Shown one piece after another: positions 17,586 through 20,005 of a DNA stretch of 64,000 nucleotides. Below the pieces are notes generated by a model, which worked only from the letters and a program-made list of their open reading frames with translations, made no database searches and had not been told where the DNA came from. How positions within the stretch are numbered: position 1 is the stretch's first letter; each line of letters starts with the position of its first letter. A program made the position numbers and the translations under genes. Origin of the DNA: Algoriphagus chordae (GTDB lineage Bacteria; Bacteroidota; Bacteroidia; Cytophagales; Cyclobacteriaceae); contig NZ_QKZT01000007.1 in the NCBI RefSeq assembly GCF_003254055.1, positions 62,001 to 126,000 of the forward strand, written 5' to 3'.

Positions 17586-17975
17586 CCAAAAATCTTGACT
17601 TAACCAGTTCACCTGGTCATTCACATAGAATAAATCCAATATCCTGAAATCCTTCTACTTAGCCAATCTCTTTTTGCAAGAATTTGGATTCTCATCAGCA
17701 CAATGCGCACATTTCCTTCTTCATTGCCCTCCCATCAATTCTATTTTAGAGAAAATTGACCTGCTCACATAATCTGTAATAAGCCTATGCCAAGCAATAT
17801 TATTTCTCTTATTATCAAACAGTTAAAATTAAAACCCGTAATAAACACTTTTGAGGGTTATGCCTTCGAAAACCGTCAGCATCTTAATCTCCGTCAGTTA
17901 TCTCAAAGATTTGCTGAAACCAAACTATTTCTGAACCTTAGGACTTCTATACTTAGAATAAACCCAAATATCTAT
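17586..17975. other. Divergent intergenic region, nothing specific seen
   Basis: This stretch separates the TPR protein from the acyl-CoA dehydrogenase. The dehydrogenase frame stays open back to 17787, but the extra 63 codons precede the conserved family N-terminus and lack a domain, so they are treated as noncoding leader. No clear promoter word or hairpin was found. Confidence 0.5.
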
Positions 17976-19118
17976 ATGTTAAACTTCACACAAAACGAAA
18001 ATCAACGAATGATTGCTCAGATGATTCGTGATTTTGGAGCCAAAGAGATCAGCCCTTTTCGCAAAGATTGGGATGACAGGCAATTTTTCCCCATTGACTT
18101 ATTCAAGAAACTCGGTGAACTCGGGCTGATGGGAGTTTTGATCCCTACCGAATACGGAGGATCAGGATTCGGCTACAATGAATATGTCACGGCTATCGTA
18201 GAGCTTTCGAAGCTTGACCCTTCCGTAGGACTTTCTATGGCAGCACACAATTCACTATGCTGTGGTCACATCATGGCTTTTGGCTCTGAGGAGCAAAAAA
18301 AGAAATATTTACCCAAACTCGCTACATGCGAATGGCTTGGGGCTTGGGGACTAACAGAACCGAATACAGGTTCGGATTCAGGGAATATGCGTACAGTAGC
18401 CAAAAAAGAAGGTGAATACTGGATCATTAATGGCGCTAAAAACTTTATCACGCATGGCGTTTCCGGAGATGTGGCTGTTGTGATTGCCCGAACTGGAGAG
18501 ATCGGGGATTCTCATGGAATGACTGCGTTCATTGTGGAGCGAGGTACTGCGGGATTCGAAGGTGGAAGAAAAGAGGATAAGTTAGGAATGCGTGCTTCCG
18601 AAACTGCTGAAATGATTTTTACGGATTGCAAAATTCACGAAAGTCAGGTGATAGGAGAAGTCGGCAATGGCTTCATACAATCTATGAAAGTCCTAGATGG
18701 CGGTAGAATTTCTATTGCAGCACTAGGGCAAGGAATCGCTGAAGGGGCCTTAGAAGCTTCCATTCAGTACTCTAAAGAAAGACATCAGTTCAATAAACCA
18801 ATCAGCTCATTTCAGGGAATTTCCTTCAAACTTGCAGACATGGCTACTCAGGTAGAAGCCTCCAGTCTATTGATATTCAAAGCTGCTGATCTTAAAAACC
18901 GTGGAGAAAAAGTGACTCTGGCAGGAGCTCAAGCAAAGTATTTCTCTTCTGAAGTTGCTGTTTCCGTATCAAATGAAGCGGTACAGATCTTTGGTGGCTA
19001 TGGCTTTACAAAAGACTATCCGGTGGAAAAATTCTATCGTGATTCCAAGCTTTGTACGATTGGCGAAGGAACATCTGAAATTCAAAAGATGGTAATTGCC
19101 CGTGAGATATTGAAATAA
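17976..19118 (+). CDS. Acyl-CoA dehydrogenase
   Basis: The 380-residue flavoprotein catalyses alpha,beta-dehydrogenation of acyl-CoA, feeding electrons to ETF. Both family signatures are present: [15 protein letters not shown] (about 122-136) and [20 protein letters not shown] near 336-355. Glu364 in IGEGTSEIQ is the catalytic base in the usual place for short/medium-chain enzymes. The ATG at 17976 gives the standard family length; an upstream ATG at 17787 would add 63 unrelated residues. The gene stands alone with its own terminator. Chain-length specificity cannot be told. Confidence 0.9.
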
Positions 19119-19141
19119 TTTCAAAATACTGAAAAATGATA

Positions 19142-19175
19142 AAAGCCTGAGATCTGTAAGAATTTCAGGCTTTTG
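19142..19175 (+). terminator. Terminator of the acyl-CoA dehydrogenase gene, possibly bidirectional
   Basis: AAAAGCCTGA (19142-19151) and TCAGGCTTTT (19166-19175) are perfect 10-base arms with a 14-base loop, beginning 23 bases after the stop. Minus-strand readthrough from glpF would also meet this hairpin, followed there by TTTTATCATTTTT. Confidence 0.8.
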
Positions 19176-19192
19176 TGTTGGAAGTGTATTCA

Positions 19193-19240
19193 GTGATCGT
19201 AATCACCAAATATACGTATATTTGGTGATTACGATCACTA
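19193..19240. repeat. Perfect 48-base palindrome between convergent genes
   Basis: The left half 19193-19216 begins AGTGATCGTAATCACC and ends AAATATAC; the right half 19217-19240 is its exact reverse complement, with no spacer. Pairing stops at 19192/19241. Long spacerless palindromes are usually unstable in bacteria, so its presence suggests function or recent formation. It has no T-run after it on either strand, so it is not a standard terminator, and it does not resemble known dif sites. No other copy or half-copy was seen in the window. Confidence 0.85.
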
Positions 19241-19270: not shown

Positions 19271-20005
19271 TTAAGCTCCCGCCACCAAATACAATCCTGC
19301 AGCCAAAGCGGCTCCCACAAATGGCCCTAGAATAGGAACCCAGGCATAGCCCCAATCTGAACTTCCTTTATCCTTGATCGGCAGAATTGAGTGCATTATT
19401 CTCGGACCAAAATCACGTGCTGGGTTAATGGCATAACCTGTTGTTCCTCCTAGAGAAAGACCAATTACCCATACTAAAAACGCAACAGGAATTGCTCCCA
19501 GAGAACCCATTCCTATGGGCGTATTGGCACCATCGCCTATTTCGACTCCATCATTATAAAGGATGACTAAAATCAACACAAATGTACCGACTAGCTCTGA
19601 GAAGAAATTCAAAGGTAGATTTCGAATAGCTGGAGAAGTAGCAAAAGGAGCAGCCTTCAAGCCAGCATCATTTGAAGCATCGTAGTGATCTTTATAGAAC
19701 AACCAAGCTATTCCCACACCAATCATAGCTCCAAGAACCTGAGCGATAATATATCCTGGAGCCAAAGCCCATTCGAATTGCCCCGTCAAAGCTAAACCTA
19801 AGGTCACCGCAGGATTCAAGTGTGCCCCACTATAAGGACCAGCTACAACTACGCCTACGAACACACCCAATGCCCATCCTGTACTAATTGCCATTATGCC
19901 ACCACCATTTCCTTTGGTTTGCGGCAAAAGCATGTTGGCAACTACTCCAGAACCCAATAACAATAAAAGTCCTGTTCCAATTAATTCCGCTAGATATACA
20001 TTCAT
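19271..20005 (-). CDS. glpF: Glycerol facilitator, MIP/aquaglyceroporin family
   Basis: The 244-residue inner-membrane channel has six helices and two half-helices carrying HLNPAV (Asn64) and INPARD (Asn194, Arg197, Asp198). The Asp after NPAR is typical of glycerol-conducting rather than water-only channels. Its ATG overlaps the glpK stop by one base (TAATG), so it is translationally coupled. It is the last gene of the glpD-glpK-glpF operon and admits glycerol for phosphorylation by GlpK. Confidence 0.93.
   Translation of the reverse strand: MNVYLAELIGTGLLLLLGSGVVANMLLPQTKGNGGGIMAISTGWALGVFVGVVVAGPYSGAHLNPAVTLGLALTGQFEWALAPGYIIAQVLGAMIGVGIAWLFYKDHYDASNDAGLKAAPFATSPAIRNLPLNFFSELVGTFVLILVILYNDGVEIGDGANTPIGMGSLGAIPVAFLVWVIGLSLGGTTGYAINPARDFGPRIMHSILPIKDKGSSDWGYAWVPILGPFVGAALAAGLYLVAGA

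Follow-up and report, generated by a model that had tools for sequence, protein, structure and literature searches.

The window, a stretch of 64,000 nucleotides from the genome of Algoriphagus chordae, contains a perfect palindrome of 48 bp at 19192..19239. As originally predicted, it is situated between two convergent genes. The gene on the plus strand (17787..19118; start as listed, with the starts in relatives lying further in) presumably encodes an acyl-CoA dehydrogenase, a name given by similarity. The gene on the minus strand (19271..20005) is taken to be the glycerol channel gene glpF from its similarity and from the adjoining glpK- and glpD-like genes. A separate terminator beside the palindrome had been proposed as well, and a terminator-like hairpin distinct from the palindrome was found 3' of the dehydrogenase gene at 19141..19174. 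It is apparent from the sequence and its stem is present in RNA folds, while a simple terminator scan listed none. The hairpin (AAAAGCCTGA...TCAGGCTTTT) recurs with hardly any change at the same place in many of 17 genomes, and sequences like it also occur at other places in some genomes of the genus. Terminator and palindrome are separated by 17 bp (19175..19191), and according to the spacer comparison this place is taken by an ATPase gene in relatives. No ATPase ORF was found in the window between 19118 and 19271, and the triplet expected to be the start codon (19185-19187, minus strand) is ACA and not ATG.

The palindrome is exact in the window sequence, without a spacer and with all 24 pairs matched. 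In this respect the original prediction was correct; the interval 19193-19240 given for it is not palindromic itself, and the true place is one base further to the left. Beyond both ends of the 48-mer there is one mismatch, followed by two further paired bases on either side. The next best arm without a spacer in the 64 kb window is 7 bases long, and the chance expectation for arms of 24 is approx. 4e-8 per 5.19 Mb based on base composition alone. The genome-wide copy count suggested earlier was carried out and placed either arm at a single site in the 5.19-Mb genome with up to three mismatches. A dispersed repeat of the REP or MITE type was therefore rejected, as the sequence occurs at one place only in its own genome. 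A known Rfam RNA was rejected too, the top overlapping match being Thr_leader with 31.2 bits against a gathering cut-off of 55. The palindrome is not flanked by a T-run on either side, in agreement with the original prediction. It was rejected as an intrinsic terminator because no T-run follows the stem and the terminator scan lists none.

The conserved parts of the element are two GTGAT-N4-ATCAC dyads, 32 bp apart, around a -7 box. Dyad 1 is GTGAT-CGTA-ATCAC (19193..19206), and dyad 2 (GTGAT-TACG-ATCAC, 19225..19238) is located 32 bp from it. The linker AAATATACGTATATTT (19208..19223) is fully symmetric here and less so in the compared relatives. The -7 consensus of Bacteroidota is TAnnTTTG. 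The box TATATTTG at 19207..19214 on the minus strand matches this consensus and points at the presumably lost ATPase gene. A mirror -7-like box on the plus strand (19217..19224) points towards glpF and probably just follows from the complete symmetry.

The same locus in related genomes

The locus was searched in 72 genomes of the genus, of which 67 matched, and 20 regions were read. The palindrome recurs in several of the 72. In seven genomes (G007, G038, G056, G025, G001, G024 and G014), the end of the element is located 5 nt upstream of the ATG of an ATPase gene with 378-382 codons, the 3' end of which is directed towards the dehydrogenase gene. In all seven, TATATTTG begins exactly 27 nt before this ATG. 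The element was kept with no such gene seen in the spacer in the window genome (G000) and in G069, G070, G006, G042 and G003, and only decayed parts of it were left in G028, G020, G013 and G051. No clear element was detected in the compared spacer parts of G015, G034 and G029. The gene-facing -7 box was kept in four of the ten orphans (G000, G070, G020 and G013) versus 7/7 gene-bearing genomes (Fisher p 0.03, a value that ignores kinship and is too small). An artefact of assembly is unlikely, because other genomes have the same element at the corresponding position. A recent origin by inversion-duplication, one of the possibilities raised originally, can be discarded, as members of the genus have the element in common.

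The spacer between the dehydrogenase gene and glpF hosts other accessory genes in relatives and looks insertion-prone. In G042 it contains a ParE-like toxin together with a small partner (L043:3312-3829), in G003 an ORF of 100 codons (L042:3248-3550) and in G029 an ORF of 506 codons (L045:3545-5065).

The copy in the window was compared with those of eight relatives; G003, whose linker is 1 bp shorter, and the strongly decayed copies were left out. Over the 28 dyad positions, no difference from the window copy was found in G007, G038, G056, G069 and G070, one in G042, two in G006 and five in G025. The other 20 positions were proportionally more changed in seven of the eight relatives, with G025 as the exception (5/28 versus 3/20). 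Fourfold sites of the linked genes differ from those of G000 by 55-68%, so the dyads have been under strong constraint for at least as long as the gene was there. Full symmetry of 24/24 pairs is confined to the window among the nine copies, and the eight relatives keep 18-23 pairs. The survival of the palindrome had been attributed to selection among other options. A protein site is the best-supported of these, but perfect symmetry itself is not the selected feature, as the four gene-bearing relatives compared pair at only 20-23 of 24 positions. Decay of the element, proposed as a check, was followed between species only and gave a mixed picture: the copies of G028, G020, G013 and G051 are strongly decayed and that of G006 partly, and G000, G069 and G070 share all 28 dyad positions despite a difference of 58-59% at fourfold sites of the neighbouring genes.

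History of the ATPase gene

A tree was calculated from three linked genes with FastTree. Its deep branches are weak, and G028 is placed on a long branch, a placement that was not trusted. The tree joins G007, in which the gene is present, with G006, in which it is absent, and G000 comes next (supports of 1.000 and 0.999). Under losses only, G000 and G006 would thus have lost the ATPase gene separately. The ATPase protein of G038 shares 96% identity with that of G056, 87% with G007, 78% with G025 and 66-68% with G001, G014 and G024. An old and mostly vertical descent of the gene beside the dehydrogenase gene would fit these identities, and we infer that it was lost rather than gained late.

Properties of the ATPase protein

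Pfam detected AAA_14 (PF13173) and DUF4143 (PF13635) over cut-off in the proteins of G038 and G001. PADLOC assigned the proteins of G007 and G001 to PDC-S01 (E 6e-161), which it lists as a phage-defence candidate, and the other five gene-bearing proteins are 78-96% identical to one of these two. PDC-S01 with its AAA_14 and DUF4143 domains corresponds to COG1373. NCBIfam gave nothing over cut-off for the ATPase. Fifty named relatives were studied, mostly from Bacteroidota and with A. aquimarinus among them. The PDC-S01 models were matched by 44 out of 44 scanned named relatives with E 1e-10 or better and by all ten AAA_14 genes of the window genome, albeit much more weakly by L077 and L078.

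When the full ATPase sequence was searched against solved structures, the matches were weak and confined to the P-loop part. The protein of A. aquimarinus, a gene-bearing relative, was modelled with a mean pLDDT of 88.9, and the model suggests the order ATPase, winged helix and nuclease-like domain. The winged helix was read from the order of the helices and strands in the model. Residues 1-277 resembled 2qen and 2fna most closely among the structures named here (Z 16.3, rmsd 3.3, 253-254 residues), followed by CED-4 and plant NLR cores (Z ~14) and Cdc6/Orc1 on origin DNA (2qby), for which Z was 12.2 but rmsd 9.0. The C-terminal domain modelled alone reached a mean pLDDT of 89.7 and weakly resembled Can2, McrC, Hjc and EcoRV with a best Z of 7.2, the best Foldseek match being McrBC (E 0.007). 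Judging from the entry names, these structural matches are presumably mainly PD-(D/E)XK nucleases. In an alignment of 44 of the 50 named relatives, E299, D325 and E338 are invariant and K340 is nearly so; a second protein alignment comprised 35 of those 44. Proteins with dyads of the GTGAT type and those with dyads of the GGATT type have different recognition-helix regions, a difference that is confounded by descent and fits a direct reading of the DNA.

Upstream arrays in the ATPase family

The regions upstream of AAA_14-type genes were classified as array-bearing at a palindrome score of at least 10 or a repeat score of at least 18. The survey of the genus drew on 16 of the 72 genomes and yielded 36 loci including the ten of the window genome, which corresponded to 33 non-identical upstreams. 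Out of 30 new loci, four (L150, L152, L162 and L167) had been dropped as they had no gene or start. Among the loci compared, L092 lacks an ATG where the start was expected, and its start was taken from the match instead. Arrays were found in 28/33 Algoriphagus upstreams and 36/50 named relatives versus 5/123 control ORFs from the window and the 20 genus regions, and in 2/165 and 5/250 shuffles; the controls are interrelated and so are the 50 relatives, and the p-values are therefore too small. The scores of 5/33 Algoriphagus and 14/50 other upstreams were below both thresholds.

Direct repeats in the 50 named relatives showed a clear preference for one distance. The mean best 22-mer match was 18.1/22 at 32 bp and 11.8 at most at the others between 12 and 74, and 32 bp was the best repeat distance in 36/50. 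A strict count of paired dyads, which is less sensitive than the repeat score, gave 9/50, each with a 32-bp pair, compared to a shuffle mean of 0.5/50 and 1/231 control ORFs. TAnnTTTG was present within the last 75 nt in 37/50 relatives and 10/33 Algoriphagus upstreams versus 6/123 controls.

In the window genome, ten genes match AAA_14 strongly (80.7 to 112 bits), eight of them with DUF4143 over cut-off, and an eleventh match with 27.8 bits looks DnaX-type. Arrays were found upstream of seven of the ten, with L077, L079 and L084 falling short. The dyad motifs differ from gene to gene within one genome, which makes a single host regulator unlikely. These upstream sequences point to a self-regulating family formed by the relatives of the lost gene.

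Other subfamilies have repeats of 22 or 23 bp (L142, L145 and L153). In one subfamily (L142, L143, L145, L146, L154 and L155), TGTACA dyads recur every 22 bp up to the start region, with L154 scoring best at 44. Two further long palindromes were observed before AAA_14-DUF4143 genes of the genus. L157 has a perfect one of 57 nt immediately upstream of the ATG, which has a single base at its centre and is longer than that of the window, and L161 has a perfect one of 46 nt, nearly the length of the window's, approx. 30 nt before the ATG. Relatives from IMG/VR are distant (21-31% identity), and arrays were found for 9/27 distinct proteins, a count that includes L178 and L179 with one shared upstream. 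Exact direct repeats of 33 bp precede the ATPase gene on six IMG/VR contigs (L190, L193, L194, L198, L199 and L200).

Distribution of the double dyad

The 72 genomes were also searched for the pattern dyad-N18-dyad with up to two mismatches, two overlapping matches in G025 being counted as one array. Double dyads with the 32-bp spacing were present at 19 places in 16 genomes. Twelve of these places precede an AAA_14-type ATPase gene, including a second place in G056, and the remaining seven, in G000, G006, G042, G069, G070, G010 and G011, are orphan copies adjacent to the dehydrogenase gene. No double dyad was found away from ATPase genes or the dehydrogenase gene in the 72 genomes at this stringency. 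In G010 (L220) and G011 (L221), the orphan array has a tyrosine-recombinase gene on one side and the dehydrogenase gene on the other; G001, G014 and G024 carry the ATPase gene at this place. The sole second double dyad in the 5.19 Mb of the window genome (C7:218064-218109, up to two mismatches) is upstream of a paralogue, with domains at C7:216992-217966, that shares 49% identity with the lost protein as it exists in G038. Exact 14-mer matches elsewhere in G029, G032 (two) and G042:C1 were taken as chance, all of them being inside ORFs. No second dyad was seen beside them, and no ATPase-like start was detected nearby among the first 70 residues of ORFs with at least 90 codons.

Discussion

The palindrome is most likely the orphan operator-promoter of a deleted AAA_14-DUF4143 (PDC-S01) gene that probably regulated itself via its own product. 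In the ancestor, the ATPase gene would have been located between the palindrome and the dehydrogenase gene, reading leftwards. The dyads, with their distance of 32 bp or about three helical turns, would lie on the same face of the DNA and flank the -7 box. The product of the ATPase gene itself most likely binds both of them through its winged helix: as the dyads are gene-specific and the fold of the protein is of a DNA-binding kind, binding of each product to its own array is the simplest reading. Since the array extends over the -7 box as well as the presumed start of transcription, binding should repress, and the bound product would shut off its own promoter. Some trigger, perhaps phage infection, might then relieve the repression. 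The window genome lacks the coding sequence at this place. What is left of the gene there is the palindrome, in all probability as a relic; residual activity as a promoter or RNA hairpin is possible. The operator array predicts self-regulation of PDC-S01, and a phased, gene-specific operator before most of the members examined provides an immediately testable DNA target for these proteins. Orphan arrays would mark past gene loss in turn and indicate where a PDC-S01 gene once stood.

The relic reading has to account for the identity of the dyads in the orphans G000, G069 and G070, which exceeds the expectation for dead relics unless the losses were recent, and counts against it. The upstreams of the family without an array (5/33 and 14/50) and the occurrence of the -7 box in only 10/33 Algoriphagus upstreams likewise speak against the operator reading. 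The 28 shared positions would be explained if the palindrome was still in use and bound in trans by another protein, e.g. the 49%-identical paralogue, whose array in the same genome shares the GTGAT-N4-ATCAC motif and the 32-bp spacing. We regard this as rather unlikely, since the intactness of the orphan elements has no clear link with the presence of a paralogue array, as judged by the pattern with up to two mismatches, which misses more divergent arrays. Among orphans with such an array, the element is intact in G000 and G069 and changed or decayed in G003 and G020; among those without, it is intact in G070 and changed in G006 and G042. Recent independent loss accounts equally well for the conservation. 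A role as RNA hairpin that stabilises or ends the transcripts of glpF or the dehydrogenase gene is improbable. Either strand gives a much more stable fold than its shuffles (z -10.2 and -10.5), but good folding is expected of any long palindrome. Moreover, substitutions in the eight relatives break pairs and mostly leave the dyad sequence as it is, a T-run is missing with a separate terminator-like hairpin at hand, and gene-bearing relatives have the element in the position of a 5' promoter region.

The presence or absence of the gene beside an intact palindrome, together with its nuclease-like domain, could also mean that the palindrome is an empty homing or recombination target for insertion of the ATPase gene. 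This is very improbable: the site is intact beside the gene, so that the locus itself would be cut by a site-specific nuclease, the search of the 72 genomes found no empty double-dyad sites away from the dehydrogenase gene, and the -7 box has a fixed distance from the ATG. On the tree, lineages with the gene and those with an orphan are intermixed as well, which taken alone would also fit gains. CRP half-sites fit a GTGA-N6-TCAC core, and the dyad core agrees with them. A site for a regulator of the CRP/FNR type or another global regulator is still hardly credible, given that the element lies between convergent genes in the window and that only two double sites exist in 5.19 Mb (up to two mismatches), the other of which precedes a PDC-S01 gene. 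In addition, PDC-S01 genes of the same genome carry different dyads at the same position.

Returning to self-regulation by the lost gene's own product, an extension of it would be that PDC-S01 proteins are self-addressed DNA binders with a private palindrome array each, and that the occupied array is more than an operator, for instance by keeping the nuclease inactive in an assembly that infection would release. We consider this extension a speculative and distinctly unlikely one. If it were true, orphan arrays including that of the window would still capture paralogous proteins.

According to the model, the ATPase and winged helix fold is shared with the archaeal AAA ATPases Sso1545 (2fna) and PABY2304 (2qen) and, more loosely, with Cdc6/Orc1. 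The binding sites of Cdc6/Orc1 are origin repeats in the vicinity of the gene that encodes it. PDC-S01 differs from these proteins by the additional nuclease-like domain, by an array that overlaps a promoter-like box and in that no replication role is indicated. As for PDC-S01 itself, the gene beside the homologous element matches this system, whereas the window has only the upstream control region. By title or the start of the abstract, no operators or palindromes for DUF4143, COG1373, PF13173/PF13635 or PDC-S01 were found in the open-licence literature, and PMC12988326 makes no mention of a palindrome, operator, inverted repeat or autoregulation. A likeness exists to RptR, which is reported to repress the promoter of a restriction-modification defence island by binding three direct repeats with a 6-bp palindrome as minimal site (PMC12255303). 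Both cases would share a repressed, defence-linked promoter with repeats, the repression being a prediction here. RptR is a separate small repressor, whereas the likely binder here is the ATPase-winged helix-nuclease protein itself, and the dyads are longer, gene-specific and phased at 32 bp. Self-regulated defence promoters with repeats are known from RptR, while the proposed family-wide, gene-specific and helically phased operator of PDC-S01 appears to be a new form of them, as judged from the open-licence literature.
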